DNA of 64,000 bases, taken from Diacronema lutheri. Taxonomy: Eukaryota > Haptophyta > Pavlovophyceae > Pavlovales > Pavlovaceae. The stretch's first letter is position 1. The number at the start of each line of letters is the position of its first letter. The notes below the pieces were generated by a model. The model made no database searches. It saw nothing but the letters and a program-made list of their open reading frames with translations, and had not been told where the DNA came from. The stretch lies in assembly GCA_019448385.1 (NCBI GenBank), contig JAGTXO010000016.1:744001-808000 (forward strand), read 5' to 3'. Below, one piece after another: positions 26,258 through 56,517 of this stretch. Position numbers and translations under genes: made by a program.

Positions 26258-26357
26258 GGCGCCTCAGAGCATGGCGCCCGCCCGCTCGAGCCGGACCTCC
26301 GCGCAGCCGGACTCGCCCCGCCCCGGGCTGCTCTGGCTGGGCGACGTCGTGCGCGCC

Positions 26358-32174: not shown

Positions 32175-32205
<31 letters not shown>

Positions 32206-32750: not shown

Positions 32751-32783
<33 letters not shown>

Positions 32784-33185
32784 CGTTGGGCCGCCCGCGG
32801 AAACGGAGGTGAGCGTGTGGGAGCGGCGCGCGTCGGCGCGCGCGGCTGGCGTGCAGCACGGATAAGTCTTGTGTGGACTTCGCGGGGCGGATCCCGGTGC
32901 AGGGATTGCCGACGTAGGCCGCGAGCGCGAGCAGGGCGGGGATGAAGACGGATGATGGGGTTGGGGCCAAGGCCGCCGCACCCGCAGCTATCACGGTGGC
33001 AGCGACCGCCACGGTCAGTGCGAGGCTCGCGTGGCCGCTGCGCGGGCAGCTCGCCCGCCAGGTCCAGGAGGGCCGGCCTGCGGCCTCAGTACCCAGCGTT
33101 GGGCATGTCAGCGTCTGCGTCTGCGGGCCCGCCACTGCGATGGCGCTTTGAGCCTGGCGCACCAAAACGCAATCGGTCCGCCGAT

Positions 33186-33216
<31 letters not shown>

Positions 33217-35123
33217 CGAGGCGTGCGCGGGGGCTTGGGGTGGGCTCCGGGTGCCGGCGCTGTGCCAGCGGCGGGCTTGGTTGACGCCGTCTCGCCGGGG
33301 CCCTTGCGCCTTGCGGCGCGAGCGTCGCGGAGGGGCGTCGGCTGCGCTGGCTCCGCGTCGGCGGTGGCGTGGGGCAGGCTCTTGTGGAGGGCGGAGCGCT
33401 CGCGCACGAGTCGGTTGCCAAGGCGGGCTGTCTGCGTGCCGTTGGGCTGCGCTTGGGCAGGTAGGACCTGCGGCCTCGGGGGCGGGCGGGTTTTCGTGTT
33501 GGGCCAGGCGGCAACGCGCACCGGCCGTGTTCGCGGCCGGCAGGCGGACGTCCGCAGCGGGGCGGAGAATGCGGGTGAAGCGCTTGCACGGGCGCGGTTC
33601 GCACCTGGCGGCCAGGCGATCACGAACCGTTGGGTCGCCCGGCTGTTTGGTGGAGCCGAGGGCAGCAAGGATAGCGAGCTTGGCCGCCTCATCGGTGACG
33701 AGCGGCACTGTTGCCCAGCTCTGTACCTCGAAGCCCTGGATGTGCAGGCGTCGGGGAAGTTCCCGGCAGCGTCGCCTGCGTCCGTCGAGAGGCGGACCGA
33801 AGTCGCGCCCGTGCCCCCGTTGGCGACACCGAGCTCTCGCTCGTTCACACCGGCCCGCCGACGCGGGCGCGTGGTGCGCGCGCGTTGGGTGCGTGTCTGC
33901 CTCGAGCAGCGTGCCCAGTCGCAGTGTGGGCGCGTGTCCGTCTGCCTCAAAACGCCACGTGGAGGGGAAGGCGCGGGGCGGGCTCGCCGAGGAGGTGCCG
34001 CCGCTCGCTGCCACCCGGCGCGGGCTCGGGGCAGCCGTCTTCGGGTGCCGCGCTCTTCGCGCCATGCACGAACGTTCCGCCGCGCTCGCAGCGCGCGAGC
34101 GCACACACAGAGCGCGCGGCGACCCCGGCGGGGGCAGTGCGTCCCGGTGGCACTCGCGGGCGCGCGCCTGGCCTGGGCGCAGCTGGGCGCGTTGCCGCCC
34201 GCGCAGCGAGCCGCCCGCGCGCCTCGCCGCGCGCGCGCTTCGTCGCACGCGTGCGCCCTGCATGCACGCGCACAGCGCGCGGCGGCTCGGCGCAGTGCAA
34301 GGCAGAGCGTGCTGCAACGGTTGCGAGGGCGCGCACGCGCGGCGCGGCGCGCCCCTGTGTGGTCGCCTGCGCGCGGCGCGTGGTCCGGACGCAGCTCGGT
34401 GGCGTGATGCCGTTCGTGCAACACAGTGCGCGTGAGAGCCGCACGTGCACACCTGCAGTGCAACGCGGCATTGCGCGCGTTGCGTGGGCGGAGCGCGGCT
34501 GGATGTGCTTGAGGTCGCGCAGCATGCCGCGCGCCGCGCGCTGTGCGGCGCAGCGAGTCGGCCATGCCCCTGGTCCTCGTCTCCGGGGGGGGGGGGGGGG
34601 GGGGTGGTGGTGGCAACCAGGATCCGCCAGCGCGTGGTGGGCGCCGTCCAACTCCCAGTCAGGATGCGCCCCGTTCTTCCCCGACACTCTCCGTCCAAAC
34701 CCGCCGCCCAGCCTGCCGCCGCACCCGCCGCCAACGCCGCCGCGCACCCATCCGCCGAGCTCACCTCGCGCGCGCTCGCGCTCACGCTGCGCGACGAGGC
34801 TGCGCAGGCCGGCGCGCGGCCGTGCAGAGCAGCGCAGGCCGGCGCGCGGCCGCGCGCGCGCGCTCACGTTGCGGCCGCGCAGCGAGCTTTCGCCGCGTCG
34901 CAGCCCCTCCGAGCAGCCACGATGCACGCCCCCGGAGGACGTTGGCCGCGCTCGGAGGCCGCGCTCGGGCGCGCAAAGAGAGGCGGCGCGGGCAAACGAG
35001 TAGGCTCGGCGCGCTGGCGGGTCCTGGTTGTGGGAGAGCGGGGCATTCTCCAGGGCATCATGTAAATTCTCCCGAGTATCATCCGGGCCGCCATCCGGAC
35101 ACTGACGTGCCCACAGTCTGCAG
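32386..35123. other. Region upstream of the giant gene; possible minus-strand exons
   Basis: No gene can be called firmly. Three poly-G runs on the plus strand (about 32754-32783, 33188-33219, 34580-34602) are poly-C on the minus strand and each is followed there by a CAG, as in the proven introns of this window, which hints at a spliced minus-strand gene. Minus-strand peptides of normal composition include GFEVQSWATVPLVTDEAAKL near 33.7 kb, a hydrophobic stretch ASLALTVAVAATVIAAGAAA near 33.0 kb and GGMVDPERKAALLAVLVRRK near 32.6 kb. I recognise no family. Confidence 0.3.
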
Positions 35124-38100
35124 ATGGAGGACTCCGTGAAGGACGCTTTGCCCGGCGGGCGGGGCGGCTCGGACAGTTTCTCGCTGGCCCTCAGCACCAT
35201 TCTGTCGCCGGGAGATACCCACCCCCACGTGGTCCCATCCACTTGCCTCATCGCCCTGCTGCGTTACGCGGATTTCGGCACGAGCAGGGTTAGGGTGGGC
35301 GACACGGGGTGCTCGCAGCATGCGCTCAAGGTGGCGCTGCGCAACCTGCGCAAAGCATGCGCGGATGCGGACCGGTTTGGGCAGGTGCTCGTGGTCGTGC
35401 TACCGCTCTGCCTCCGCGCGTCCAGCGGCCTCGTGCACTGGACGGCGGCGTACCTGCTCCTCGCGCCGCCCGCGCAGCGCGGCGCGCCGCCCGGCGCCGC
35501 GCTCGCCCTGCTCGCCGATTCGCGCACCTTGGGCAACGGCGAATCGGCGTACGCCACGGCGGCCGGCGTGCTCATCAAGAAGCTTGCGCAGCGCATCGGC
35601 AGAACAGCGCCGCCCATCGATGCCTTCAAGGCGCCCCCGCAGAGTGGGGCCGCGTGTTGCTTCGCCGCGGCAACAGTCGCGGCCGAGGTCGTGGCGAGCG
35701 CATCGACGCTCTACGGCCGCCGCGCGAGTGTCCTTGTCGACATCAAGAAGGCTTTGGACGCGCGCCTCGCGCGCCTCACGACGGCCGCGTACGAGGAGAC
35801 CCGCGCGCGCACGCTCCGCGCCGCCATCGGCGCTCTGCTCGGCGACCGCGCCAGGCGCTTCGGCCCGTTCACCCGCGAGGCCGCGCGGCTCGCCGAGGCC
35901 GCGCGGCTCGCCGAGGCGTGCGATGCCAGTGTCGGCGGATCCGCGCCCGACGGGCTGCTGCAGGCCGTCGAGGCGGCGCTGCGCGCGCCCGACGACCGCA
36001 TCGCACGCACGGCCGCGCTCGACGCGCTCACGGGCGCTGCAGGCCGCGCGCTGTCGACGGCGGCCAGGCCGCGCGGCGCGGCGGCGCCAAGGCCGCCGTC
36101 GCGAGCGCCACCGCCGCGTGCGCCGCAGCGGCGCGCCGCCTCGGCGTGGGGGCCCCGACCATTCAGCAGCCTCGGCGGGGGCGAGGGCGACGGGGACGAT
36201 GGCGACGCCACCACCGCTGACGACGGGGAGGGCGCGGAGGACGGGGACGACGACCCCGCGGGCGCGGCGGCTGCGGCGGTGGCGACGGGCACGGCGGCGA
36301 CGAGCGCGGTGGCGGCGGGCGCGGCGCCAACCTCGCCGGCGGCGGCGGACGGCGGTGGCTCGGCGCCGCTCGAACGCCGCTGCGTCTACACTGCGCCTGA
36401 TGAGGGCGACGCGGACGCGCGCGTGTACGACGCCAAGGACCCCGAGCAGCTAAAAGCGGGCAGGGCGCGGCTACGGGCGAACAGCGGGCGCGCGCCCGCC
36501 GTGGTCGACACGCTTTTCGCGCACGCGACGGGCACGATCGTCACGCGGCAGCGCACGGAGGGCGTGACCGGCGCGGGCATGCACCACCTCGCCGCCCCGA
36601 CGCAGGGCGCGGGGTACGGTACCGTCGTGCGGGCCGAGCTGGGCGAGCCCGGCTTCGCGGGGACGACATGGCACATGACGTCGGGCGTGGAGAACCAGCC
36701 GCGCGCGGTACGAGCGGCCGCGCGCGCGTACGCGCACGACGGCTGGGGCGGCGTGTACAATGCGCACGAGGACTTTGCCGCCTTCGAGGGCTTGCCGCGG
36801 CTCGCCGCGCCCGAATCGCTCGCGGCCATCGCCGGCGGGTCGGCGGACGCGGTGTTCTGCTGGCGGTCCGGCCGGTCCGTCATCGGCGAGGTGACGACGG
36901 TTCACTTCAATGGCGACCGCGCCGCCGCCATCGACCACGCGCGGGCGCTGCGCGTCAGGCCCGATTGGCGCTCGCAGCCCAGGATCTACGAGGCGGCGTG
37001 CGGCGCGGAGGGCACGGTGCTGCTCGTGTGGGTCGTGCCCGACCGTCACAAGAACCCGCGGCTGGACTGGGCGCCGATTCTCGTCGTGATCCACCTGCCC
37101 GCCGACCCCGACTGGCTCGCGCGCGCCACGCCGGCGATCGCGAAGGCGCGGCGCGAGGTCGAGGACGGACGCGCGCGCGCGGAGGCGCGCGGCGTGCCGC
37201 AGCACCTCGCCTACACGCTGAGCCCACGCTTCCGAGGCACCGCGCCGCGCGGAGCCGCGCGCGTGCCGCCGCGCCTCGGCGCGAGCGACGCGCGCGAGGC
37301 GCGCGCGCTCGCGGCGCTCGAGCCGGCGCTCATGTTCGCGCCGGCCTGGCGGCGCGCGGTGCGCGCGGCGAGCCGCGCCCCCGGCAGTGGCGCCGCGGCC
37401 GTCGAGCGCGCGCTCGCGCGCCTGCACAACGCGCTCGAGCCCGATGACGAGAGCGCGCCCGAGTCGACGCGCGTCGCGCCGCTCGCCGCCGCGCTCGAGC
37501 AGTCGGCGGGCTGGCCGGCGGGCACGGCGCGCATGGCGGCAAGCGTGACCAAGGGCCCCGGCGTCGGAGATGGCGCAGGTGGCGACGAAGCGATCAAGGT
37601 GGAGGAAACGGCGAAGACGAGCGGCGACGGCTGCACCGGCACGCCTCCTCTGCGCCCGGCCGCGCGCGCGGCCGGCGCGGCGGACGACGGAGGGGCGGCG
37701 GTCGTGGCGGGCGTCGAGGGCGAGCGCGACGCACTCGCCAAGACGGGTGCCGGCGGCTGCGACGACGAGGCTCGCGAGCCGCTGTCGGCCGGCAAGCCCG
37801 GCGCACTCGCCGCCGCGGCGACCGTCGGGGGTCTCGGCGAGCTCGTCGGCAGCCTATGCGCGTGGCTGGCGCGCGGCGCGGCTGGCGGCGCCATCGCGGC
37901 CATCTCCCCCGGGACGGCCGCGCGCGGAGCAAACGGCACGCCGCAGCGCGCCGAGCCGCCGGCCGCCGGCGATCCCGTCGCTCCGCACGCGCGCGTCGCC
38001 GCTGCGGCGCCCTTGGCGGGCAGCGCGGCGGCGCCGTCGTCGGCCGCGCGCGACGCGCAGCGCGGCGTCGCGGGATTCGACGCGGCCGCGCACGCGCACG

Positions 38101-41100
38101 CGCGCGACGGCAGGCGGGCGGCACGGCGGATGCGCAAGCAAGAGGGGGCGGTGCACAGGGCCTTCCGCAAGTCCCTCTGGCGCGACGCGACGTTTGTCGA
38201 GTTCGTTGAGAAGCTGCGCCCCGACGGCAGCGCGCAGCTGCTCGCGCGCGAGCCCACGCGGCACGCGGCGGCGGTGCTGTGCGAGCTCGCGCGCGGCCGC
38301 GACGGCGCGAGCGGCGCGGCCGGGCTGCTGCACGAGATGAGAGCCGCCGATGCGCGCGCGCGCGAGGCCGCCAAAGCGGCGGAGGCAGCGCGGCTTGCGC
38401 ACGGGACGCTGCGCATCGTGGCAACCGTGGCGCTGGGCGGTGCGGTCTTCGCCGGCATGTCAGCGCTGGTCGTTGCTTGCGCGGCGCGCACGGCGACCGG
38501 TGCGCTTTTTGGGGCCCGCCGCCCGCGGGCGGCCGCGCGCGGAGCCGACGACGCGCTCGGCACGCTGCAGCGCGCCGAGCCGCCGCCCGCCGACAAGGGC
38601 AAGCGCAGGCGCGCCAGAGCCAACGACGACCCCGTCGACGCGGCGCGCAAGGCCGTGGGCAAGGCGGAGGGCAACTGCCGCAAGGCAGCCCGCCGGCTGC
38701 ACCTCGCTGCACTGGGCGAGGAGGAGGCGCAGCAGCGCGTGCTCGACGCCGAGGCGGCGGAGCAGCTGGCGCGCTCGCGCGAGCCGGCCGGCGGCTGGGT
38801 AGGCAGCGCGCGCGCGCGCGCGCGCGCCCCGCCGCGCGCGCGCCCGTCGATTGGCGTGCGCGCAGCGCAGAACGGCGCGCCAGCTCCGTCACCTGCGCGC
38901 CGCCGCGCCCGTGCCCCTCGCGCGCAGGGGCGCCCTGCGGACCTGCGGCTGCAACAGGCGCACTTTGGCATTCGCGAAGATGCCGACGCGGATGTGCGCC
39001 GCGCGCACGAGGCGCTGCGCCGGGCGAGACAGGGTGTGGCGTGCGCCAAGGCCAACGTGCGGCAGATGGAGGCGGCGTTGCTCAACGCGACGCGCTGCGC
39101 CACCGCGGTGCTCGCGCCGCGTGGCGTGCCGGAGGGTGACGAGCAGGCCGCGGCGAGAGAGCAGGCGGCGCTGGACCGGGAGGCGCCGCCGGCCGCGGAA
39201 CGCGCGGCGCCGACGGCGCGCTCGCCCTCGGAGCTGCCGTCCGAGTGGGGCCCGCCAGCGGTCGGCCGGCGCCCGACGCCGCGTGCACTGTCGCACGCCG
39301 CGGGGTGCGGGGACGACAACCCGTTTGCGCCGCTCGCAACCGTCAGCGGTGATTGGTCGCCCACGCCGAGCTTGCGCCCGCCGTCCTCGCCGCCGCGGCA
39401 GCCGCCGTCCGACCGCCGCAGCGCGCAGCGTCGCAGCGCGCGCGCGCGGCCGCCGAGGCCGACCGTTTCACCCGAGGAAGCGCTCGCAGCCGAGCGCCAG
39501 GCGCGCGCGCTGTCGGAGCAGGCGGAGCAGAGGCGCGCCAAAAAGGCCGCCGCCAAGGCCGCGCGCCGCGCCGCGCGCGCCGCCGACAAGCGGACGGCGC
39601 GCGTCGTCCACGCGTGCGTAAGCGCCGCCTTGCAGCGCGTCTGCACGAGCGTCGCCACGGGCACGCCGCTCGCCGTGCTCCGCGAGCGCGCCGAGAGGCC
39701 GCGCGCGCCGAAGGCCGCGCCCGCGCCACCACGCCGCGCAGCGGACGGCGGCCGCGCGCTCCGCCACGCGCGCCGTGCGGCCGATGCGGCGGCGGAGCGC
39801 GAGGCGGCGGTGGCGGCCGACGCCGACGAGCGGTTCGAGCGGCAGCCCTCCGCCGCCCGGTTCGACGGCGGCGATGGCGGCGGAGGCGGCCACGTCGAGG
39901 CGAGCGCGCGACCGCGCGCCGGCGAGGCCGGCGAGGCTGGCGCGCACGGCGCGCCTGGCGCAGCGGGGCCCCCGGCGGCGTCGCTCGCGTCGCGCAGCCC
40001 GTGTGATGCGCGGCGCACGGCACGCCTCCCGCACGCACGCGCCGCAGCCACCTACGCAGGCAACGGCGGCTGGGGTGGCAACGTCGGCGGCGACGTGTGC
40101 GGCGATTGTTTCGGCGGCGGCGGCGTCCGTCGCGACGCCTGCGGCGGCGGCGACGCCACCTGCGGCTGCGGCGATGGCGGCGTCGGTGCTGGCGCTGGCG
40201 AGGCCCCTGCACACGGTGCGCCGGCGCGCGCGACGGCGTCGCGCTTGCTGCGCTTGCTCGGCGCGCCACGCGCCGTGCTCGGTGCGATGGCGCACGCCGC
40301 GGCCGTGTTGGCGCGCGGCGTGGCCGCAGCCGTCGCTGGCGTGCGCGCCGCCGCGCGCGCCGTGCGGCGCGCGCGCCGCCGAGCGCCTTGCGCGCGCCGC
40401 ACGGCTGCGCGGCGCGCTCGCAGCCCGCCGATGCGCGACGTCGACGGCGCCCTGCGGCCCTCACCGTCCTGGCCGCGCACACGCCTCGTCTGCGGCCGGC
40501 GCCTCGCGCCTCTGCGCCGCGCGGGCGCGCGCCCGCCGCCCGCACACGCCGCGCCGAGTTCCCGCGCGCGCGCTGCGCAACCCGACAGCGACGCGCCGGC
40601 GTGCGCGCCGCGGCGCTCGGCGCCTGTCGGTGCGCCGCCGCGCGCGCGTGGCCTGTGCGCGGCGCGCGCGCGGCGCGTCCTCGACGTCGCCGGCCGCGCG
40701 GCGCGGAGCGCGCGCCTCGGCGCGCGCATCACGCGCCAGCGCACGCCGGGCCCGTCATCGGAGCCCAGCACGGCCGAGAGCGGCGACGGCGCGGGCGCCG
40801 GCGGCATCGGCGCGGCGGCGCCTGGCGCGGCGACGATGCGCGCCACCGGCGCGCGCGCAGCGCGCGCTGCGGCGGCGGCGGTCGGTGGCGCCTCGCGTCT
40901 CGCGCGCCGCGCGATGGCAAGCGCCGCCGCCGCTGCCACCTCCATAGCCGGCGCTGCCGCCTCCACCGTCGCCGCCGCCGCCGTTGCCATCGGCGCGGCC
41001 GTCACGTCACCGGCGTTCGCCGCGGCGCGTGGCATGGCGGCCGCATGCGTCGCTGCCTGCGCCCGCCCCACCGCCGCGCAGGCGGCCGCGTCGCGCGCGC

Positions 41101-44100
41101 TCGGCGCGCTCTTCGTGCTCGTCGACGCGGCCGACGCGGCGGGCGACAGCGACGCCGCGCTCGGCGCGCTCGCGGCCGCGGTCGACGCGACGGAGCTGCG
41201 CCCGCCGCCGGCCTTTTGGCGCGCGGGCCGCGCCGCGGCGTACGCACCGCGTCCGCCGCCCCTCAACTCGGCGCGGCCGCGCTACAACCGGCGCGCGCGC
41301 GCACCTAGCCCTCCCGTCGCGGCCGCGCGGCGCAATCTCGAGCGCGCGGTGCGCGAGCTCACGCGCGCCGCGCGCGCTGAGCGCGAGCGCGCGCCGGCGC
41401 CGCGCGGCGCGCGCGGCGGCGTGCTCCACGCGCTGCGCGCGTCGCTCCCCGTGCACGCGCGCGTTGCGCTCGGCACGGACGCGGAGCTGCGCGCGGACAT
41501 TGCCGCGTTCGCGCGCGCGCGCCGCGAGCTGCACAGCCTCACCGACGCCGAGGTGGCGGCGCTCGCGCGCCCGGACGGGCCGCCGCTGCCCGTGCGGCTC
41601 GCGTGCACGGCGGTCGCGCGCGCGCGCGGCGTGACCGTGCTGCTCGACATCGTGCCGCGCGGCGGCGGCGCGCCCGAGCGGCTCGTGTGCCGCGCCCGTC
41701 GCCGCGGCGCCGCCACGCGCACGCCACGGCCGACAGCCGCCGTTATCGCGCGCGCGCCTTGCATAGCGGCGCGCGTTGGCCACACTGAGCCGGCGCGCGC
41801 GTGCGCGGGCGGACCGATCGGGGTCGTGCGCCTCCGTTCAGCGCGCCGCCGTTCTTGGCGTGGGGCGCGGCTCGACGTGCACACCCGCGAGCGGCTGGCC
41901 ACACCGGTGCCATGCCACGTCGTGGCCTGCGCCGCCGCCTCGGCCATCGGCGCGTGCGTCGCTCGCGCGCGGCTTGGGCTTGCACGGCTGGCGCGCGCGT
42001 GGCCCTGCGCCTCCGCTCCACTAGCCACTGCTGCTGTCGCCTTCGCGCCTGCCGCCGACGGTGTTTTCCCCGCCGCACTAGCCGCTCCTGCATCCGCCTT
42101 CGCGCCTGCCGCCGATTTTCCCGCCCCACTAGTTGCTCCTGCATTCGCCTCCGCGCCTGCCACCACCGGCGTTTTCCCCGCGCCACTAGCCGCTCCCGCT
42201 GTCGCGTCCGCGCCTGCCGCCGCGGGCGTGTCTTCCGCCCCACTAGTCGCTGCCGCTGCCGCCCTCCAGGCCGCCTCCGACGGCGTTTTCCCCGCCCCAC
42301 TAGTCGCTGCCGCTGCCGCCTTCCAGGCCGCCTCCGACGCCTTTTCCCCCGCTCCACTAGCCGCTGCCGCTGCCGCCCTCCAGGCCGCCTCCGACGGCGT
42401 TTTCCCCGCTCCACTAGCCGCTGCCGCTGCCGCCCTCCAGGCCGCCTCCGACAGCGTTTTCCCCGCCCCACTAGTTGCTCCTGCATTCGCCTCCGCGCCT
42501 GCCACCACCGGCGTTTTCCCCGCGCCACTAGCCGCTCCCGCTGTCGCGTCCGCGCCTGCCGCCGCGGGCGTGTCTTCCGCCCCACTAGCCACTCCTGCAT
42601 CCGCCTTCGCGCCTGCCGCCGATTTTCCCGCCCCACTAGTTGCTCCTGCATTCGCCTCCGCGCCTGCCACCACCGGCGTTTTCCCCGCGCCACTAGCCGC
42701 TGCCGCTGCCGCCCTCCAGGCCGCCTCCGACGGCGTTTTCCCCGCCCCACTAGTCGCTGCCGCTGCCGCCCTCCAGGCCGCCTCCGACGGCGTTTTCCCC
42801 GCCCCACTAGTCGCTGCCGCTGCCGCCCTCCAGGCCGCCTCCGACGCCTTTTGCCCCGCTCCACTAGCCGCTGCCGCTGCCGCCCTCCAGGCCGCCTCCG
42901 ACGGCGTTTTCCCCGCTCCACTAGCCGCTGCCGCTGCCGCCCTCCAGGCCGCCTCCGACAGCGTTTTCCCCGCCCCACTAGTTGCTCCTGCATTCGCCTC
43001 CGCGCCTGCCACCACCGGCGTTTTCCCCGCGCCACTAGCCGCTCCCGCTGTCGCGTCCGCGCCTGCCGCCGCGGGCGTGTCTTCCGCCCCACTAGCCGCT
43101 CCTGCATCCGCCTTCGCGCCTGCCGCCGATTTTCCCGCCCCACTAGTTGCTCCTGCATTCGCCTCCGCGCCTGCCACCACCGGCGTTTTCCCCGCGCCAC
43201 TAGCCGCTGCCGCTGCCACCCTCCAGGCCGCCTCCGACGGCGTTTTCCCCGCCCCACTAGTCGCTGCCGCTGCCGCCCTCCAGGCCGCCTCCGACGGCGT
43301 TTTCCCCGCCCCACTAGTCGCTGCCGCTGCCGCCCTCCAGGCCGCCTCCGACGCCTTTTGCCCCGCTCCACTAGCCGCTGCCGCTGCCGCCCTCCAGGCC
43401 GCCTCCGACGGCGTTTTCCCCGCCCTACTAGTCGCTGCCGCTGCCGCGTCCGCGCCCCCCGCCGCGGGCGCGTCTTCCGCCCCACCAGCCATCGCCGCCG
43501 CGCCCGCCGCCAACGCGCGCACCGCCAACGTGCCCGTTGCCAACGAGGCTACCGCCACCGAACCAGCCGCCCTTGAGCTTCCCCTCCAACCCGCCAACTC
43601 GGCGCTGCTTGCGTGGGCGGGCGACGCGGCTGCGCGCCGGCTGGCCGCCGCCGCCGCGAGCGCCGGCCTCCCGCAGGCAGAGGTGGAGCGCATCGCCAGC
43701 GGCGACATGCTCGCCTCAACCGTCGACGCGTGCTGCGAGGTCGTGCTGCGCGTGCACGGGCAGGCCGGCGGCGGGCATGTCTGCCACGTGCCGCTCGCCG
43801 CGCAACCCGCGGTGTTTCAGGACGACGCCGAGCGCGCCGCGCTGCTGCACCGCCTGCGCAGCGAGGCGACAACGCAGGCTGTCATCGGCGTGTGGAGCCC
43901 GTCGGACGAGCGCGGCGGCGCGGGCGGTGACGACGGCGCGCAGCTCGCCTCCGGCCATTTCACCGCGTTGCGCCTTGTGCGCGTCGCGCGCGCGGGCGAG
44001 CATCGCTACGACGCGGTGCTCGTCGACACGCTCGCGTCGCCCTGCAGGCAGGCGCTCATGCTCGCCAAGGCGATAACTGCCACGCTGCACGCGGCGGGTC

Positions 44101-44560
44101 TCGACATTTCGCGCGTGCGCCGCGCGCTGCTGCTCAACGAGGCGGCGCAGCGTGGCGCGACGTGCGGCCTCGCGATAGTGGGCGCGCTCAACGACGCGCT
44201 CGCCGCGGCGGGCTGCTCGTCCGCGCCGCGCACGTTCAGCGTGGCGGACATGTACGCTGTCGGCGAGCGCCTCCGCGTCGCGCTGACCGGCGCGGCCAGC
44301 GATCGTGCGCCGGGCGGCGTCTGCGCGGTCAGGAGCGCGGTGCGTGGCGGGGGCAGCCCCGATCGCGCCGAAACGCCGCCGCAGACGCGCGGCGCCAAGG
44401 CCGCCGCTGGCGTCACCGCCGCCGCCACCGCCGCCGCCACGCCGCCGCCGCCCGCGCTGGGCGCCGCCGCCGCCGCCACCGCCGCCGCCGCCGCTGCTGC
44501 CGCCGCCGTGGCCGCGCCGCCACCGCCGCCACCGCCGCCGCCGGCCGGCGACGAGGGCGA

Positions 44561-44629
<69 letters not shown>

Positions 44630-47600
44630 GCGCACGTTCTTGAAGCTCGCGCCCAGGGCGCGCGCGGCCGCCTCGGCGCGTGAGGCGTTGCGCGCCGCGT
44701 GTGCGCGCGCGGACGCGGCGGCGTCGTCACACGCGTCGGCGCCGCACGCGCCCGCCGGTGCGCGCCGCCGGCGGCGCGCGGGCGCAGGCGAGCTGGCGCT
44801 CGCGGCTGCGCGCGCGCTCGCCTCGACGGAGCACGGCGATTTGACGGACGACGCGCTCGAGGCCGCCATCGAGCAGGAGCTGGGCGACGAGCGCGGCCAA
44901 CTGCTGCTGTGCACGCGGGGCGCAGCGGCGCAAAGGCCCGCGCTTTGCCGGCTCCTGAAGCACGCGTGCGCGTCGGCGCGCGCGGCGAAGCGCGCGCAAT
45001 TCACGGTGTTCGTCGTGCGCGCGCCCACGCGCGGCGAGCGGGGGGGCGCCGCCGCGACGCGCGTGGACTCGGTGGTCGAGCTGTCGTGCGCGCTGCACGA
45101 GAAGGCGGGCGCGCTCGGCGGCCTCCAGAGCGTCTGTGTGCGTGGCTTTGCCCTCGAGCGCCGCCGGACACTCGACGCTGGCGCCGAGGCCGGCGCGTCC
45201 GCCATCGGCCAGGACGAGCAGGTCGAGGCAGAGGCGGGCGAGGCGTCCGTCGCCGGCGTGACGATGGCCAAGCAGCTGCGTCAGTTTGCCGAGCAAGCTG
45301 CCCGCGACGACGTGCTCTTCCACGTCGCCGTGTCCGAGGCCGACGCCCACGCCCGGCTGGCGCGCGTTGCGGGTGACTATGTCGGCGCGTACAGCGTCGT
45401 GCTCGCAGTCGCCGGGCTCGTCTGGCTGGCCAAGGCCGACGAGGTTGCGCCGGCGGCCGCCCAGCCCGCCGCCGTGCCGCCCGCCGCCCCGCCTGCTGCC
45501 GCCACGTCCGCCGACGCCGAGCGCGACGCCTCGCCTTCCGACCGCCTGCGCGCGCTGACGCTCGCCGTGCGAGTCGCGCTCGCGCGCGGCGTGCTGCGCC
45601 ACCTCCTCGCCGACGCGTCGCCGGGCGCGTCCGCGACCGCTGGCGGTAGTTGCGCGACGCCCGTCGAGGCGGCCACGTCCGCCGCCGCGCCGCCCGCCAC
45701 GGGCGTCGTGACGAGTGGCGTTGCGGCGGGCGCTGTGGCGGCCGCACCGGCTGCTGCGGGCGGTGCGATGGCGGGTGCATCGCCCATCACGCGGCCGGCG
45801 AAGCGCGCGCGGCGCACGCTCACCGCCGCTCCAGCCGCCTCGGCCGTTGCGGCCGCTGGAGGCGCACGCGCGGGCGCACGCGGCGCGGCCGGCGCGCCTC
45901 GCGCGCGCGCCGCGCGCGCGCCGGCCGAGTACGTCTGGCTTGCCATCGCGCGCCGGATGCTGGCGGCGCGACACGCGGCGGCCGCGGGCGGCGACTTTGT
46001 CGCGTCGTGCGTCGCCGCGATGCAGGCCGAGTACGGCGACGGCTGTGCCGTCGTCGTCGGCGACGCGCCTGATGACGCCTTGGTCGAGGCTGCGGCGGCG
46101 GCGCTGCTCGAGGGCAAGCACGCGGCGGTGAGCCTCGGCTGCGTCGACCGGCCGGCGGTGCTCGTCGTGCAGCGCGCCGTGGACGCGCCCACGTCGCGCG
46201 TGCACGGGTGGTGCGCGCACGCGGCGGGCGCCGCCGAGTTTGACGAGGGCGCCGCGCACGGCGTGTTCAACGCGATCGTCGAGCGCGCGTGGGCGCTGCG
46301 TCCGGACCCGGCCGACGGCAGCCCGCCGCCCACGCGCACGTGGGAGGTCGAGCAAATCGCTGGCGACGCGCCCGACCAGGCGGGCGTGGCCGCGCTGCGC
46401 GTGCTCTACGCGCTCGTCGCGGCGCACGGCCGCTACCGCTCGGCCGCCGCGCTCTTTGGCGCGCTCGCGCAGCTGCACGCGCCCGACGCCGCCGGCGCGC
46501 GCGCGGAGGTCGTCGCGGCGGCGTGCGCGGTGCCGCCCGGCGCGCGGCCGGGCGCCGCGCCGGCGGCCGCGCGGGACGACGCGAGGGAGCGCGCATGGGA
46601 CGGCGCGCAGATCGCCGCGCTCGCCGTCGGCGCGGACGCTGCGCGCAGGCGTGTCGCGCCCGTGCGCGCGCTCGTCGACGCGCTCGGCACGCCACCGACC
46701 TCGGCGATCACGGGCGGGCCGGCGGTCCGGCTCGCGGGCGCGGGCGACGGCGGCCACGGTGCACGGTGGGTGGGCGGGCAGGCGGCGACGCCCGCCGAGC
46801 AGCTGCCGAGGGAGCTGCTGCGCGCCTACCACGAGGCGGTGCTGTGCGTCACGCCCGGCAGCCTCCAGCTCGGCCCGGCGGCGCTCGACGCGGTCACGCG
46901 GCCGCGCGAAAACGACACGCTGGAAGGCCTCCTCGCGCGCGTCAGCTGGCAGTGCGGCGCGAGGGCGAGCACGTGCGCCATGCTCGCCACGTTTTCCGAG
47001 CAGGCGGGCACCGGCTCGCGCGTCGCGCTCAAGGCCCTCCGCACGAGCTCCGACCTGGCCGGGCTGACGGCGGCTGCGGTCGGGCAGCAGGCGCCGCAGA
47101 CGCCGCCGCCGCCGCTTCTCGTGATGCTCGGCCGCTGCCCCAGCCCGCTCGTCGGCGGCGGCCTCTTCCCGCCCGACCGCGCGACGGGCGAGCCGGCGGT
47201 GCACGCGGCGACGTCCGAGCTCGCCGTCGAGCTGCTGCGCGACGCGCGCGCGCTGGCCGGCACGGACGGGCGGCTCGTCGTGCTGTGCCTCGAGGCGTCC
47301 AACCCGCTCTGGTTCTGCCCCAAGGTGCGCGAGCTCGAGCTGCCGCGGACGCGGTCGGACGGCGTGCGCGCGTCCGGCTGCACCTGCCCTGCGACGTGCA
47401 GCGATGCGCGCGGCGCGGCGGGTGGCGCTGCCCGCGGCGCATCGACGCGGCCGGCGGCGCGCGCGATCAACAAGGCGGTGCTCGACCACTTCGTCGCGCT
47501 TTTCGGCCGCGAGGGCTTCGCGACCTTTGAGTTTGCGGGCGGCGGCGAGGCGAGCTGGCTGTGCGACAGCGCGGCCGGCACGACGACCGTCGCGGCGTGC

Positions 47601-50600
47601 GCGTCGCTGCCGCCGCGCATGGGCGATGGGCAGCTGGCCATCCGGCGGCACACGCTCGGCACGGGCGCCGACGCGCCGGCGCACGCCGTCGTCTCGCTCC
47701 GCGTCGCGCACGTGAGCCACGCCATCCGCCGCGCGGCGGACGACGGCGGCGCGCGCGCCGAGCGGATGGCGCGCGCCGCGCGCGCGTTCTGCGATGTGGC
47801 GGCCGCGCTGCGCGTCGACGCGATCCTGGCGGAGGTGCCCGAGGACCGCCCGACGGGCACGCCCTTCCTTGGCGGGCTGCTCAAATGTTGGGACAAACGC
47901 AACGGGAGCTGGACGGCGCCAGCCACGCTCGCGCTCGGAGACGTGCGCGAGGTGGCCAAGCGGACGGCCGACGCAGCGGCCGGCCGAGCGGACGAGGTCC
48001 CTGCGGCTGGCCGTCCGCAGGTCGCGGCGCGCGCGTGCGCTGGCGCGATTGGCGGCGGCGCGGGCGCGGCGGGCGCCTCGGACGCTGCGCCGCGTGCACT
48101 GGCGGGCGCGTCGGGTGCGCGCACGGACGGCGGCCCTGCCGACGCACCGCGCCAGCTGGAGAGCCGCTACGGCGAGGCGAGCAAGCTCGACCTACCCCAA
48201 GATTCCACTACGGGCCGCGTCCTCGACGCTCGCGAGGCCCAGGACCGCGCGCGCGTGCCTGCTGCGCCCGACGGCACAGCGCTGCGCCGCGTGCTCGACG
48301 CCGTCGGCGCGGGCGCGCCCGCGCAGCGCAGCCCGCGCTGGCACGACGAGCGATGGGAGGAGGTCACGGGCAGCAAGGTTGGCGACGTCGTGAACGACAA
48401 CGCCGGCGTCGCGCACGAGACGCTCACCGACGAGTACGTGCACCGGCGGCGGCGCGAGGTGCGGACCAAGGCGACGACCGCGGGCATCCTCGGCGAGGCC
48501 GTCGCGCTGCGCAAGCTGGCGGCCGCGTACGGCATCACCGTCGTGTGCAACCTGCCGATGGTGCGTGCGGACCCGCACGACAAGAGCGCGCCGTTCGCCT
48601 TCTCGCCGGACGGGCTCGCCATCCTCCCCGAAAACAACGAGCAGGTCCTCGTCGAGGTGAAGACGCTCACCAAGGCGGGCGCCACGGCGCACGAGGACGG
48701 GCCGCCGCAGCCGCACCGCGATCAGCTGCAGCTCGGCATGCACGTCCTCGGCGTGAGCAAAGCGCTCTACGTGCAGTACCTCAGGCACGAGGACCGGATC
48801 GTCGTGCACGTCGTGACGCGCGGCGCCGGCTGGCTTGCATTCGCGCAGCCGAGGGTGCAGGCCTTCTGGGCGCGCGTCGTCGAGCGGCGCGCGCGGCTCG
48901 AGCGCGCGCGCGCCGACCACCCGGCTGCGAGCCGGCGGCACCGGCGGCAGCAGACGCCGGCCGGGCCGCCGCTCGTGCTCGCGCTGGACGGGCGCATCCC
49001 CGCCGCGCGCGCCGCCGCGCTGCACGCCGTCGCGCACGGCACCGCGAGCGCGGCGGCGGTGACGGCGGCGGCGGCGACGGGCGACGCGACGGCGTTGCAA
49101 GACGCGATCGCGGCGCTGCGCGCGCCCGTCGGCAATGCGGCGATCGACAGCGCAGCGCGTGCGGAGCGCGCGGCCGTCGAGCGGGCGATCGCGTACCTCG
49201 GGCAGCCGGCAGGCGACGCCGCCGCCCGCGGCACGGCCGAGGCGGCCGAGGAGGAGAGGACGGTCGACGCCGACATCTGCGCGTTGCTGCACCAGCTCGG
49301 CGCGAGCGTGGCGCACGTGCACGTCGAGGACGCGGATTGCGTCACGCGTGAGCACTGGGGCGGGGCGGTGCTCGCTGCAGCGGGCGACCCGTCGAGCGCC
49401 CCCGCCATTTCGAGCGTCATCGTCGCGCACATCGTGCGCCTCGCCGGCTTTGGCGTCGAGCTCCCGCAGTCGATTCGCGTCGCCCCCAGCACGGCCGACT
49501 GGCACGAGGGCTGGCTCGACGTGCAGTGCGTGCTGCTGCGCACGCGCCGGCGCGGGCGGCGCGACGACGACTTTGTGGCCGTCGTCAGGCGCGGTGGGCG
49601 CTGGTTTGCGTGCGAGCCCGGCCGCGCGCGGCGGCTGCAGTGGCGGTCGGTCCTGCGCCGCGCGCGCGGCGGCGTCGACGGGACCGGCGAGGAGGCGTTC
49701 GCGGTCGTCTACGTGCGGCGCGGCGACGCGGCCGGCGACGCGGCTGGCGACGCGCAGGCCGAACGGGCGCGCGGCGGGCGCGCGCGCAGGCGCACGCGCG
49801 GCGGCACGCGCAAGCGCAAGCGCGGCGCCTCCGCCGGGCTCGAGGCGGCCGCGCCCGCCGGCGCGCCGGCGGGCGCTGCTCACCGCCCGCCCGCCAGGCG
49901 TGCCACGGTCGCCGCGCGCACCACGCGCTCTGTGACCGACGCGCGGCACTCGGCGCCTGCCGCCACGGTTGCACCTGTCTTCGACTGGCGCGCCGGCCGC
50001 CCGCCCCCTGCCGCCGCCGCCGCCGCCAAGCGCGGCCAGGCGCTCGAGCCGGGGCAGTTCGCGCGGCCGCGTGGGCGCGCGCCATGGGGCAAGGTCTGGG
50101 ACAGAGTCTCGGGTGCGTGGGCGGACAAGCCGACTGGTGCTGCCGTCGCCGCCGCGCCGCCGCCGCTGCCGCCCGCCGCCGCGCCGCCGCCCGCCGCCGC
50201 GCCGCCGCCCACCGCCGCGCCGCCGCCCGCCGCCGCGCCGCCGCCCGCCGTCGCGCCGCCGCCCGCCGCCGCGCCGCCGCCGCCGCCGCCACCGGCGGCG
50301 CTCGGCCGCCGGCAGCACGTCGGCGCGGGCGGCAGCGCGGCGGGCCGGCGGCTCGCGGCCATCGCACGGCGGCAGCGCGGCGTGCGCGCGCCGCCGCCCG
50401 CCGCGCGCTTCCTCGCCACGCTGCCGCCACCGCCACGCGACGGCCTCGCGCGCACGAGCAAGCAGGCGCGCGCGAGGCGCAACGCGGACGGACGGCCGGC
50501 GCACGCGCGCGCGGCCAACGCGCGCGCCTTCTACCGCGGCGTGGAGCTCGGCGTGCACGCGACGCGCGCCATCGTCGACGCGCGCCACGCCGACCTGCCG

Positions 50601-53600
50601 CAGGCCGTCTTCGTGGCGGAGGCGCGGGCGATCGTCGCGCGCTCCGCCGGCGGCGGCGCGCTGCTCGCGCCGGACGACGTGCGCGACCTGTGCGACGCGC
50701 AGACGGACGCCGATCGCGCTGCGATCTGGGCGTCGGTGGGCGCGCACGAGGCGACGCGCATCTTCGCGCTCGTCACGCGCAACGCGAGCTTGGCGGGCGC
50801 GGCGCTGCTCGTGCTGCACACGCCGGCGGGCGCGCCGGCGCGCGCGCTCGGGCTCGTGGCGACGCGCTCGCGCGCGCCGTCGACGGGCGCGCCGCGCGAC
50901 GCGCACAGGGCGCTGGTGCAGCGGTTGGACGTGCTGATGGACGCGATCGCCGCGGCGCGAGGCGCGTCGCCGCTCGAGCTCGAGCTCGCGCTCGCGCCCG
51001 AGCCGCAGAGCGCGTGCAACGCGCGTGCGGCCGCGCTGCTCTGCCTGCAGGCCGTCGCGGACGCGAGCGGCCGTCCCGCCGCTGAGGACGCGCTGGCCGC
51101 GCTCGACGACGCGCGCGGCATCGACCGGCACTGCCACGCCGTCCGGCAGCAGATCGAGGCGAAGCTCGCGTGGCGGCGCGCCGACGGCGCCGTCGGCGTT
51201 GACGGCGCCGACGGCGCGCCCGCGCTCGCGCCTGCCGCCGCACCGCCGGCGTGCGCGCCGGCGCACGCTGCCGGCGAGGCGGCGGTCGACCAGGCGATCG
51301 TCACGCGGGTGCGCGACGCGCTGCGCGCGTGGGCGACGACTGGCACCGCGCCCAGCGCGGCGGTGCTCGACGACGCCTGCGCCGCGTACACGGCGCGCGC
51401 ACGCGCGCGCAAGGACGCGCGCACGGCGCTGGGCCCGACGCGCGCGGCCGAGCTGCTCGCCGCGGCCGCGCGCGGCGGAGCCGACGGGGCGGATGCCGCG
51501 CGCGCGCTGCTCGGCGGCACGCCGCGCCTGCTCGTCGTGCTCCTCTGCGTGCCCGTCGCCGCGCCGTCCGGCGAGCCGCCGCGCCCGGTCGGGCTGCTCG
51601 TCGCCGACCGGCCGACGGACGACTCGCGCCCGGCCGCGCTCGTGCGCTACGACTTTGCGCCGCTCGACGCGGACGTGGCCGTCGCGGTCGGCGCGCATGC
51701 CGTCGCGCTGGCCAGTGCGATCTGGCCGCTGCTCGCGGCCGAGGGGGAGCCGCGGCCATCGCCCGTCGTGCGCTCGCAGCCGCGCGGCGGCGACGATGGC
51801 GCGCGTGCGCTCGCAACGTTCGCGTGCCTCGACGCGCTGATGACCGCCAGCGTCGGCGCGCACGGCCTCGCGGGCGGCGCGGGCATGCTGCCCGCGCTGG
51901 TCGCGCGAGGCGCCGCGGCCGCCCAGCGCGAGCGGCAGCTGCGCGCGGCCGCCGAGAGGCTGGGCGGCACGGCCGCTGGGTGGCCGGACACGGGCGCGAG
52001 CGCGGCGGGCGCGAGCGTCGACGAGGAGGCGCGCACGTACGAGGTCGAGGCGGTCGTCGACGAGCGCCGCAAGGCGGGCAAGAAGGTGACGTTCCAGTTC
52101 CGGATCAGGTGGCGGGGCTACGACGAGAGCGCCGACACGTGGGAGCCTGAGGCCAACGTGAGCAGCGACCTCGTCGCCCAGTTCCGCAAGACGCGCGACG
52201 AGCAGAAGCGGCGCGCGGGCGTATCGGGCAGCGGCAGCGGCGGCGCGGGCGCGGCGTCGGCATTGGCGTCGGCGCCGCTTCGCGCGCACGGCGAGTCGGG
52301 CGCCGCGGGCAAGCGCGCCGCGGCGGGTGCCGCCGCGAGCGCGCGCGACGCCGCGGGCGCGCGCGCGCCGAGCGTTCCCCGCGCGCGCGGCGTCGAGCGC
52401 GCGCGCGTGGACGAGCCCGCTGCGCCGAGCGCGCGCGCCGCCGGCGGCGCGACGGCGCGCACGCGCGGCAGCGTGCTCCCGGGCTTCGTGGTCAAGCGCT
52501 CGACGCTCAACGCGGGGCCGCAGGCGGTGACGGCGCAGCCCGGTGCGCGGAAGGAGCTGCGGCGCATCGCGGCGGCCGTGCACAGGCTCACGACACAGGC
52601 GTACCGCGTCATCAACAAGGTGGTGCGCGACGAGGCTGCGGTGGCGAGCGCGCAGGCCGTCGGCGCGGCGTCGGGCGGCCCGTCGACCAGCGTGCACACG
52701 TCGACCACGATGGACAAGGGAACCGTCCGTGCGATCTTCTCGGCCATCGGCTGGCACAAGGACGAGAGCACGTACGGTGCAGCGCCCCGAGGCAAGCCCG
52801 CCGAGCAAGCCGCCGCGCAGACCAAGGCGGCGACGGCGCGCGCCGTCGGCGAGATGGCCGAGGGCGTCCAGCCCGTCTGCGCGGTGGGCCTCACGGAGAT
52901 CCTCGAGGCGGAGGCGACGCAGGTGTCCACCGCGTGCCTGATGCATCCATCGCGCGTCGTGAACGGGCTGCTCCGCGACGTCGTCCGCGCGGCAGTCGAG
53001 CGCGACGAGGCGCTCGTCGCGCTGCCCGAGATGCAGCGAAACGCGCGCGTGCGCGAGCTGTGCGAGCGGCTGCTGCGCGGCGACGTGGAGGGCGCGCGCG
53101 TCGGCTGCCCCGCCGCGCTCGACCGCCACCTGCCCGACATGGTCCTCCACAAGATCGACTACAAGTGCACGCCCACGAAAAGGTGGAACTACGACCGGCA
53201 CACGACGCGCTACTTCCTCGTGCAGATCCGCACCCTGCAGCACGTGGCCGAGGGGCAGGCGCTGCTCTGCCGGCTCGCGCACATCCACACGCAGCTGACC
53301 GGACGGCCGCCGCGGTACAATGTGGCGCCGCTGCGCACGCACAATGTGCGCGCGAGGCGTGGCTGCCGCTGCCGCCGCCGAGGGCCCAAGCGCGCGCGCC
53401 GCCGCCGTGCGCGCCGCCCCGCGGCCAGGTTGGTCACGCGCCCGCGCGCTCGCGCGCCGCGCGCTGCGCGCAGGTGCCGCGCAACGTGCGCTTCGCCGCG
53501 AGCGCCATCTGGGTGACGCTTTCGGATGACGAGCGCAAGGAGCTGCGCGCGCGGCTCAAGGCGCTGGACCTGCGCGACCACGATGGCGAGCCGATCAAGT

Positions 53601-55198
53601 GGACAGGCACAAACGGCAACACCCCGCCGATGTCGGACGTGCGCGTCAGGTACGCGGTCTTTGCGACGCGCTTCGACATCTCCAACCGCGTCTTCGACTA
53701 CGCCGGGCGCGAGCGGCCGCCGGCCGATCTGCCGTGGCACGCGCGGCGCTCGTGGGTTGGCCTCGCGCCGCTGCCGCGCGTGCCGCTTCCGGGCCGGCAG
53801 CCCGTCAAGTCGGTGGTGACAGATGGCGTCGCCGTGCACGCCGTCGGGACCGTCCTCGTGCCGAAGGCGCAGGCGCCGGCCGGCAGCTCGGGCGTCCTGC
53901 ACCGCTGGCGCCGGCCGGACGGGCGCATCGCCGTCGCGCTCGGCTCCGAGCTGCGGCGGGCGATCGACGTCGAGGCGGCGGTCGTCGTCGCGGCCGACCC
54001 GAACATGGGCAACATCACCACCTACTCTGCGCACGTCGGGCGGGCGGCCGTCTGGCGGCAGTTCACGCAGCGCGCGCGCGCGCGCGCCGCGGGCTTTGCG
54101 CGCGAGACGGCCAAGACCAACGCGGCGCGGCGGCGCGTGCGCAAGGACGGGCGCGGCGGTGAGTTCAGCGTGGAGGCGGACGAGGCGCGGCTTGGCGAGG
54201 CGCACAGCGCCAAGGTGCTCGACGAGGGCGAGTTCCACGCCTTCCACCGCGAGAGCGCGCGGGTGCGCGAGCGCGCCGCCGAGCACGTGTACGACGCGCC
54301 GGCGCGCCGGAAGGAGCGCTGGCGGCGCGACAGCGGCGGGCGGTCCAACGCGGCGCGCGTCGCCGAGGCGCTCATCGCGGCGCACTGTGTCGACGGCGTG
54401 ACGCGCGACCGGCTGCTCGTGTGCGTGGGCAAGTGGCTGCGCGACCACAAGGGCGCGCAGCCCAAGGGCGCGCCGCCCGCCTTCCAGGTGGGGCTGCTGC
54501 GCGAGCTGCGGCGGCGCGGCGTCGCGGCCGTCTTCGTGCCCGAGCCGTACACGTCGATGCACTGCTCGATGCCGCGGCTCGCCAAGGGCGGCAGGCTGCA
54601 GCGCTGCGGCGCGGAGCTCGCGCAGAACCCGCGCCTGCCCGTGGCAAAGGGCGGCACGCGCACGGTGCACGCGCTCGTCATCTGCCCGGCGTGCAACGGC
54701 GGCAAGAAGCCCGTGCACCGCGACTACAACGCCGCGCGCAACATCTTCTACGACGTGCACGACATGGCGGCGCACGCGGCCGGGCGCGACACCACGTCGA
54801 CGCCTGAGCGCTTTGCCCTCGTGCTCGCCTGGTGGGCGCGCGGCGAGGTGTGGGAGCGTGAGGAGCGCATGGTGCACGGCGAGGGCGACGACTGCGACGA
54901 CGAGTGCGACGGCGACGACGAGGGCGACGACGAGGGCGACGACGACGACGACGACGATGGCAGCGGCGACGGCGGCGGCGGCGAGGGCGACGGCGACGGC
55001 GACGGCGACGGAGGCGGCGGCGGCGACGACGACGATGACGGCGGGGGAGGCGGCGGCGGCGACGGCGGTGGCGACGACGGCGGCGGGCGCGGCGGCGGTG
55101 GCGGCGGCGGCTCTCGCGCCCGCACCCCCGCCCGCGGAGCTGCCAGCGCCAGTGCCGGCGGCGGCAGCGCGCGCGGGCCGAAGCGCGGCCGGCGTTGA
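35124..55198 (+). CDS. Giant multidomain element protein: Ulp1-like proteases, YqaJ nuclease, chromodomain, Fanzor
   Basis: One frame to 53345, an intron 53346-53473 (GTGCGC...GCGCAG), and a second exon to 55198: ~6,650 residues. Order: (1) Ulp1/C48-like protease with His105, Asp132, Gln173, Cys179; (2) a coiled, Ala/Arg-rich region with a membrane-like helix near residue 1100; (3) the repeat array at residues ~2300-2780; (4) a second Ulp1-like fold with His2945, Asp2968, Gln3009, Cys3014; (5) further related but degenerate folds; (6) YqaJ-type nuclease at ~4400-4585 (GILGEAV, FSPDGLAIL, VLVEVKTL, QLQLGMHVLG); (7) chromodomain 5639-5695 with its Tyr/Trp/Tyr cage; (8) Fanzor with RuvC Asp (53996), Glu in PEPYTS (54542) and Asp in HRDYNAARN (54722), zinc ribbon CPAC, and a long Gly/Asp tail. 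The frame is intact over 20 kb. Start chosen at the first ATG before the protease; an upstream exon is possible because CTGCAG precedes it. No capsid, polymerase or integrase seen. Confidence 0.8.
42030..43450 (+). repeat. Coding tandem repeat with higher-order structure
   Basis: The unit is ~60 bp and encodes about 20 residues of the type APLVAAAAALQAASDGVFP, with CCACTAG in nearly every unit. Units of different type are themselves arranged in a higher-order block of ~505 bp: the GTTGCTCCTGCATTCGCC start recurs near 42127, 42475, 42635, 42980 and 43147. Blocks are almost identical, so the array is young or kept uniform by conversion. All length changes keep the frame. Confidence 0.9.
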
Positions 55199-55597
55199 CG
55201 CACGGCCGAGCCGCGCAGCGGTCGACGCTTTGCGGGCTCTGCCCAGGTCGCGCGCGGCTGGCGACGCGTGCCGCGCGCGGCACGACCGTGCACGCCGCCA
55301 CCCGTGGCCGAGCGCGCCGCACCAGCCGGCCCGCTCCAACCGCCGTGCGGATCACGGACGCTCGCTACGGCTCGTCGGCGCGCGTCACCTGCGCCGGCGG
55401 CCACGGCGCCGTCTGCTCCGGCCTCGTCGCGAGCAGCCCGACCGCTGCTCGCCGCCCGCACGCCGCCGCAGCAACGCTGCGCGTCGTGCTCCCCCGCTCG
55501 CCAAACGCGAAGAGCTCCCTCACAAGGACGTCCTTCCGAACGGCCCGCGCTGCACTCGGGGCGCGATCGTGCCCCTGATCGGATTTGGCTTGACCAT
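55199..55597. other. Gap after the giant gene; likely element boundary
   Basis: About 400 bp between the Fanzor stop and the 3' end of the desaturase gene. It has an 18-bp palindrome at about 55266-55283 (CGTGCCGCGCGCGGCACG) but no hairpin cluster like that at 58.5-59.0 kb. The right end of the element should lie here; I cannot identify a terminal repeat. Confidence 0.4.
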
Positions 55598-56517
55598 CTA
55601 TACGTTGTATTTGTGGTGGAGGACGTGGTAGTCGGCGCCCATGAGGGGGTAGGGCAGGTGCGGCTCGCCAATGTGGATGTACATGGTCCAGAGCCCGAGC
55701 GTGGTCGCGACGGCGAGCACGGCGGCATACGGCACGGGCACGAGCAGCTGCGAGAGCGGCAGTGGTAGGCCCTGCAGCGTGCCGTCGATCGGCTCGAACG
55801 CAAAGCCCGTCCAGACCGTCATCTCGCTCGAGCGCTTGGCCGCGTGGTGCTTGGCGTGCTGCGCGATGCCGCGCGCGTCGGCGGACCGGGCGAAGCGCCG
55901 CGGCGTGAGGGCCGCCCCACGCCGCGCAACCAGCCTCGTCCAAACGGTCATCTCGCTTGAGCGCTTGGCCGCGTGACGCCGCGCGCGCGCGCGGACCGGG
56001 GCGCGCGCGGCGCATGCATTCGCGCGCGAGCGCGCACGTTGAAGGCGGTTTTGCCAAAGGGTAGGCGGTGGAGGAGGCCCCAATGGACGAGGAAGACGCC
56101 GAGCTCGAAGAGCACAAACCACACCACCGTCCATGCGAGCGCGTGCGCGGGCCCGCCACACTCGGCGAGCGAGAAGCACGCGCGCGAGAGCCCGCGCGCA
56201 TGCAGCCACTCGTTCAAGAAGCCGACGCAGCTGTACATCTGGAAAGCGACTTCGCTCTCGCGGCGGTGCTGGCGCCGCAGCGCGATTGGCGCGCGCGCGG
56301 TGCCGCTGCGCGGCGCGAGGCGCTCGACGGCCGCCTGCATCGCGCCGCCGCCCGCGTAGTAGACGGCGCGCACGGCGAGCGCATAAAACATGTAGACGAC
56401 GAGCGCGGACGTGGCCAACGAACTCGTGGAGCCGCCCGCGCCGGTGACAAAGGCGACAGTGGCCGCCGACGCGCCGAGATGGCGCAGCGCCCACGCCACG
56501 CTCGTCGCCGCGAGCAT
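55598..56517 (-). CDS. Sterol C5(6)-desaturase-like (fatty acid hydroxylase superfamily)
   Basis: Two exons (56517-56038, 55858-55598) give 246 residues. It is a di-iron membrane enzyme: four hydrophobic segments and three His boxes, HWGLLH, HAKHH and YHVLHH. The stretch between boxes two and three (FAFEPIDGTLQGLPLPLSQL, PYPLMGADYH) follows the plant/fungal C5-desaturase pattern in which AFHPxDGxxQ and PLMGAxYH occur. Its role would be the delta-7-sterol C5 desaturation step of sterol synthesis in the ER. The intron 55859-56037 lies exactly between the first and second boxes. The frame stops three residues after the last box, where relatives carry ~20-40 more, so a further 3' exon (possible GTATAG donor at the stop) or a short C-terminus is likely. 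Divergent with lysA. Confidence 0.8.
55808..56000 (-). repeat. Duplicated exon 2 start inside the desaturase intron
   Basis: A segment covering the 3' splice region and the first ~15 codons of exon 2 (55808-55890) recurs, partly shortened, at 55936-56000 within the intron. The intronic copy still encodes AAKRSSEMTVWT but lacks about 18 bp around the acceptor. Confidence 0.8.

Follow-up and report, generated by a model that had tools for sequence, protein, structure and literature searches.

A family of giant Fanzor-bearing mobile elements, probably recently amplified DNA transposons, in Diacronema lutheri

The window analysed here, a stretch of 64,000 nucleotides from contig JAGTXO010000016.1 of Diacronema lutheri, contains one copy of a giant mobile element of 32,208 bp on the forward strand (23396..55603), located directly 3' of a TATA tetranucleotide (23392-23395). 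The element encodes a giant protein with a RecE/YqaJ-type exonuclease domain, a chromodomain and a Fanzor nuclease, together with a PIF1-type helicase and a UCH-type ubiquitin hydrolase. Further copies were searched for in the D. lutheri assembly of 43.49 Mb and 103 contigs (labelled C1, C9 and so on); the published NIVA-4/92 assembly is given as 43.503 Mb in 103 contigs with 73.25% GC (PMC8379373). Five other copies aligned to the window showed homology from approximately 23.39 to 55.60 kb, with internal deletions in some, and the copies on C9, C75 and C29 were collinear with the window over the whole stretch between about 24.5 kb and the right end, except for a gap at a tandem repeat. An exact search with the terminal sequences identified 174 left ends (pattern including the preceding TATA) and 193 right ends across the genome, and reversed control patterns of both termini returned no exact match. 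We take these copies to be a recently amplified giant DNA transposon family in D. lutheri. The original prediction, made from the sequence alone, had proposed a giant mobile element at 35124..55198 and a genome search for copies with the same domain order. The exact ends and the collinear copies bear this out, but those coordinates miss the true extent of the element and overlook its left third, which carries the helicase and the deubiquitinase.

The ends were defined by comparing the flanks of 20 further insertions with those of the window, giving 21 junction pairs. The left terminus (23396..23430, forward strand) begins with TA[G/C]GGCGCGGTCCGGGC and is read across the junctions as TA[G/C]GGCGCGGTCC, with GA replacing TA in one of the 21 copies. 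At the third element base (window position 23398), 11 of the 21 copies carry G and 10 carry C, perhaps reflecting two subfamilies. The right terminus (55574..55603, forward strand) closes with GGCTTGACCATCTATAC, and 20 of the 21 junctions read GACCATCTATAC. Among the matches listed, 25 insertions could be paired; the spacing between end probes was 30.5-31.7 kb in 15 of them, about 21.1 kb in 7 and different in the remaining 3. With a mean length of 27.4 kb, the 174-193 copies amount to 10.9-12.1% of the assembly, an estimate limited by the non-random sample of these 25 length-paired insertions. The copy on C70 (L026-L028) represents an older 21-kb form, 90-99% identical to the window and without the region of approximately 32.2-43.6 kb, and its length resembles that of the 7 shorter insertions.

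A TATA lies directly 5' of the left end in 21/21 junctions, and the density of TATA in the window outside the element is 0.16 per kb. At the window locus, the element splits a host gene of the fatty-acid-hydroxylase/sterol-desaturase type on the minus strand (55607-56584 plus the left flank before 23395). When the sequence left of the element, up to and including TATA (23395), is connected to the sequence that starts at 55604 on the right, the reading frame HHKYNYTFGMFTVLWDSAFGT is preserved; three alternative joins break it. The translation of the joined flanks matches the FA_hydroxylase profile to its end (positions 63-132, 1.9e-8), whereas the match of the right flank alone ends at position 112. 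The element therefore comprises 23396-55603, was inserted after TATA without duplication and owns its final C. The reconstructed empty site contains a single TATA and no target-site duplication, and TATA adjoins both junctions in the same orientation. No terminal inverted repeat was found, with 6 of 20 positions matching. Among the flanks L052, L056 and L068-L071, some have common repeats ending in GTTAGTATA, which are probably the ends of other elements that use the same TATA target and adjoin this one; the repeat beside L070 and L052 also occurs with no element following it (L069), and there it carries a TATA of its own.

The missing duplication and the TATA at both junctions would also suit a Crypton- or IS607-like element, in which a tyrosine or serine recombinase too divergent to be seen acts at a TATA core, and Cryptons and IS607-type elements are named among published Fanzor hosts. 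However, no recombinase-like match was obtained by motif scan or with Pfam in the open reading frames (ORFs) and pieces scanned. Furthermore, the C that follows TATA at the right end is part of the element, which would not be expected from a simple core exchange. We regard this origin as unlikely.

The giant gene opens with an ATG frame of 6,130 codons (35124-53516) and continues in another frame into the Fanzor core up to 55198. The exon-1 side of the protein (35124..53345, forward strand) was assigned from the open frame, an excess of synonymous differences and the GC content of codon positions. Long frames come cheaply at 75-80% GC, as illustrated by a frame of 1,716 amino acids lying antisense within the giant ORF. 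Codon-position GC tracks the giant frame between 35.1 and 53.4 kb and switches to the exon-2 frame at 53.5-54.9 kb, with exceptions at the tandem repeat (41.8-43.6 kb) and near-ties at 38.7-39.1 and 45.4-45.9 kb. This repeat consists of about 25 units of 57 bp (42013..43490, forward strand) and codes for an Ala/Pro-rich sequence. With the repeat excluded, comparison of the window with five other copies gave 272 differences, of which 90 were synonymous (67.7 +/- 6.6 expected) and none created a stop (3.0 +/- 1.7 expected), a signal that is only moderate because the copies are young.

Among several GT-AG pairs, the one we chose as most plausible places an intron before the Fanzor core at 53346..53473 (forward strand). 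A second likely GT-AG intron on the same strand, with a (GC)n tract inside, lies at 38799..38927 and probably interrupts the giant ORF. The tract is preceded by a GTAGGC donor and followed by CAG acceptors at 38927 and, as an alternative, at 38870, and in the window copy the length of each interval is divisible by three. Tract length varies between copies, with 4 extra bases in 3 of the 4 compared. When 131 copies were matched by their N-terminal 300 residues, the frame ran past the tract at 38.8 kb in 9, measured 1,345-1,351 codons in 116 and had another length in 6. A spliced intron would explain both the open frame in the window and the loss of frame in other copies. The unbroken frame in the window is thus probably a chance-open intron, a length variant, and the giant gene probably has at least three exons. 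The prediction of an 18-kb open frame continuing into a Fanzor core holds insofar as the frame exists and is followed by codon-position GC; its unbroken form is confined to the 9 copies mentioned, and the single intron it assumed probably has a partner.

A more prosaic account would take the ~6,650-residue protein for a host gene or a chance frame in GC-rich DNA, and its copies for an assembly artefact. Such an account could draw on the antisense frames that very high GC also yields, and on contigs C1, C12, C8, C3 and C14, which terminate at the right end of the element exactly or within one base; these stops are most likely assembly breaks at a repeat. Against it, the flanks differ at 21 loci (a few have common repeats), the GC signal is frame-specific and accompanied by the synonymous excess, and the element interrupts a host gene. 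In addition, 149 copies were matched by the 43.6-44.4 kb segment, and the surrounding frame spans at least 4,000 codons in 113 of them. Short of raw reads, we count this account as refuted.

Profile searches identified three of the domains that had been proposed for the giant protein. The RecE/YqaJ-type exonuclease domain (48324..48950, forward strand) matches PHROG 434 at 2.9e-16. In the window copy, the Pfam YqaJ match (E 0.0036, 18 bits) and the NCBIfam lambda-exonuclease match (2e-6) fall below their cut-offs, and the C71 copy passes the Pfam cut-off with 28.2 bits. The chromodomain (52038..52190, forward strand) matches Pfam Chromo at 6.6e-13. Downstream on the same strand, an N-terminal part of Fanzor (52470..53345) was assigned by position, without a profile match, and is followed by the RuvC core, the TNB domain and an acidic, Gly-rich tail (53474..55198). 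The core matches Pfam PF07282 at 2.4e-6, its 28 bits lying just over the cut-off of 26.3, and reaches an E-value of 0.058 with the NCBIfam guided_TnpB model. The Fanzor motif published in PMC3627910, D-X(125-275)-[TS][TS]-X-X-[C4]-X(5-50)-RD, is present, with 185 residues from the D of ADPN to TS, four Cys (the first pair irregular) and RD. PMC10711439 describes DPG as almost the exclusive form of RuvC-I in Fanzors, and an alternative Glu six residues ahead of the zinc finger. That Glu is found here in EPYTSMHC, separated from the first Cys by six residues.

The SUMO-protease folds also proposed for the giant protein are unsupported. No match to such folds was observed in Pfam, NCBIfam, PHROGs or PDB sequences, the PDB searches giving matches at chance level or none, and the nine genome matches to PF02902 (C48) all lie outside the window. 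With a profile built from three of the genome's C48 proteins, the giant protein scored no better than shuffles. The question stays at this grade because an AlphaFold model of 43647-44319, predicted from a single sequence with a mean predicted local distance difference test score (pLDDT) of 40, could not settle it. For the suggestion that these proteases process a polyprotein, support is limited to residues picked by eye. A row of six degenerate Ulp-like repeats in the giant protein, proposed from eye-matched motifs, was considered and dropped; BLASTP of the first against the second and the profiles from the genome's own C48 proteins gave no support. Visual inspection also suggested a PD-(D/E)XK-like appearance for residues 400-760 and an SSB-like one for the region that precedes the helicase, resemblances that we do not claim.

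The left third of the element contains a small minus-strand ORF (24562..25080) with coding-like GC3 and no Pfam match. It is followed by nested inverted repeats (25390..26276) with arms of 207, 174, 104 and 89 nt that are 95-99% complementary and, judging by their sequence, could fold into a long hairpin upstream of the helicase. The PIF1-type helicase region, including an unassigned N-terminal part, occupies 26833..29400 on the forward strand (Pfam PIF1 1.7e-15 and 1.5e-24, Pif1_2B 1.2e-12); structure prediction of the region before the helicase (26833-27732) from a single sequence gave a mean pLDDT of 34. Next on this strand is an ORF with a UCH-type ubiquitin hydrolase domain (30351..31760, Pfam UCH 3.4e-9). 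At the 3' end, the non-coding stretch 55199..55603 (forward strand) is, by analogy only, a candidate guide-RNA scaffold region.

The size of the element, its RecE-type nuclease and its helicase, together with mentions of YqaJ in the giant-virus literature, would be compatible with an integrated virus-like element or remnant instead of a transposon. Yet the Pfam scan, which covered 31 ORFs, pieces and translations but not an exhaustive six-frame set, found no capsid, polymerase or packaging match, and four query sequences had no relative in the viral contigs of IMG/VR. We consider a viral origin very unlikely. Bacterial and archaeal genomes gave a single hit (L086), which was dropped because unrelated genes occupy the opposite strand at that place.

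The absence of duplication, the tetranucleotide at the left end and the TATA in the same orientation at both cut sites, in place of inverted repeats, suggest a single-strand mode of transposition like that of IS605 or Helitrons. In IS605 systems, the tetranucleotide also serves the nuclease as its motif, and the right flank is the guide. We tentatively favour a replicative transposon of the single-strand type (HUH; IS605- or Helitron2-like), in which RNA-guided cutting of empty sites by Fanzor is followed by repair copying, and we infer each of its enzymatic steps as follows. A new copy would be placed directly 3' of TATA without target-site duplication, as in single-strand transposons, by a strand-transfer enzyme that either lies unrecognised within the giant protein or is provided from elsewhere. 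The guide RNA would extend past the right end into the flank, and Fanzor would recognise TATA as its motif and cut the matching empty site on the sister or homologous chromosome. For comparison, SpuFz1 is described as requiring a CATA motif (PMC10432273), which is close to the TATA of this element. The RecE/YqaJ exonuclease would then resect the break and the PIF1-type helicase would aid copying of the element into it by repair, two activities that would be appropriate for resecting the ends and for extended repair synthesis once an RNA-guided cut has been made. The chromodomain may tether the complex to chromatin, and the deubiquitinase may act on host regulation.

Several observations weigh against this scheme. 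Pfam and motif scans of the element's ORFs and pieces recognised no HUH, tyrosine-recombinase or DDE domain. One of the 20 fetched flank pairs (L050/L051) has a 12-bp repeat on both sides. The terminal folds are not significant (z -1.79 left, -0.28 right), so that no significant terminal hairpin was found, and the last 300 nt, taken as a candidate guide RNA, do not fold significantly either (z -1.46). The RuvC-I motif reads DPN and not the near-universal DPG. Moreover, the reading frame of PIF1 shifts at two places within the helicase domain (27960-28060 and around 29010). The first change is the same in 5/5 other copies; at the second, four of the five have the length seen in the window and the C70 copy is one base shorter. 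Candidate introns over the two changes were not convincing, and the changes may be tiny introns or signs of a decayed gene. The helicase may thus be dead in the lineage that was amplified.

The element could instead be a variant Helitron or Helitron2 that replicates as a rolling circle with Rep supplied in trans, the Fanzor and the other domains being passengers. The PIF1 helicase and the lack of target duplication agree with this, as does insertion after a fixed tetranucleotide, which passages of PMC3627910 report for Chlamydomonas Helitron2 (TTTT), with duplications of 7-19 bp in some. A single Helitron_like_N match was found elsewhere in the genome (L082, C63:35738-36019, E 8.3e-23), a possible trans partner. 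However, no Rep was recognised in the element by motif scan or Pfam, the terminal folds lack significance, and there are almost as many exact left ends as right ends, with no sign of the marked surplus of 3' ends reported for one-ended insertions. We hold this explanation to be possible, though on the improbable side. Quite unlikely, in our estimate, is a self-contained RNA-guided cut-and-copy element without a classical transposase, in which Fanzor would cut TATA-flanked sites. Break-induced copying of ~30 kb, including into new sites through short TATA homology, would then be driven by the RecE-type exonuclease and PIF1 helicase that the element itself encodes.

We also compared the element with known systems. 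IS200/IS605 elements with TnpB insert 3' of a tetranucleotide, without duplication or inverted repeats, and carry an RNA-guided nuclease. The present element has these insertion traits and a TnpB-type nuclease in common with them; it differs in having no Y1 HUH transposase recognised by Pfam or motif scan, in being eukaryotic and in being about twenty times larger. RecE-type exonuclease modules (Lambda Red) are found in phages and large DNA viruses. The YqaJ/RecE domain is the shared feature, but here it is part of a giant protein, in which a chromodomain and Fanzor follow it, and no annealing protein was recognised. Helitron and Helitron2, as presented in PMC3627910, resemble the element in having a PIF1-type helicase, in inserting without duplication behind a fixed tetranucleotide and, in some, in carrying a Fanzor. 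They differ from it in the target (TTTT or A/T, not TATA) and in their Rep domain and terminal hairpins, as no Rep was recognised in the element and its terminal folds are not significant. Candidate asymmetric inverted repeats like theirs were noted by eye at its ends. Eukaryotic transposons carrying Fanzors are already known (PMC3627910, PMC10711439), and those bearing Fanzor1 share a TnpB-like Fanzor with displaced catalytic Glu inside a DNA transposon. Unlike them, this element measures 32 kb, has PIF1 and UCH genes, reads DPN for DPG and lacks a recognised transposase, and its Fanzor is joined on the upstream side to a chromodomain and to a giant protein containing RecE/YqaJ.

In the open-licence literature searched, no precedent was found for the domain combination, size, copy number or chromodomain upstream of Fanzor, and nothing joined Fanzor, transposon and YqaJ, or Helitron and YqaJ. 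We describe the element as a variant of the Fanzor-bearing DNA transposons with no recognised transposase and do not file it as a Helitron. A 'new class' of element stays possible and no more, because no enzyme moving it was recognised.

One giant element family occupies roughly a tenth of a compact 43-Mb genome. The role of Fanzors in the transposons that carry them is unsettled, and D. lutheri offers a young high-copy system with exact ends. The fixed target motif TATA would double as the recognition motif of the nuclease, and each of the ~190 right flanks would be a natural guide. Together with the recombination enzymes in the element, these features make RNA-guided copying directly testable in a culturable alga.

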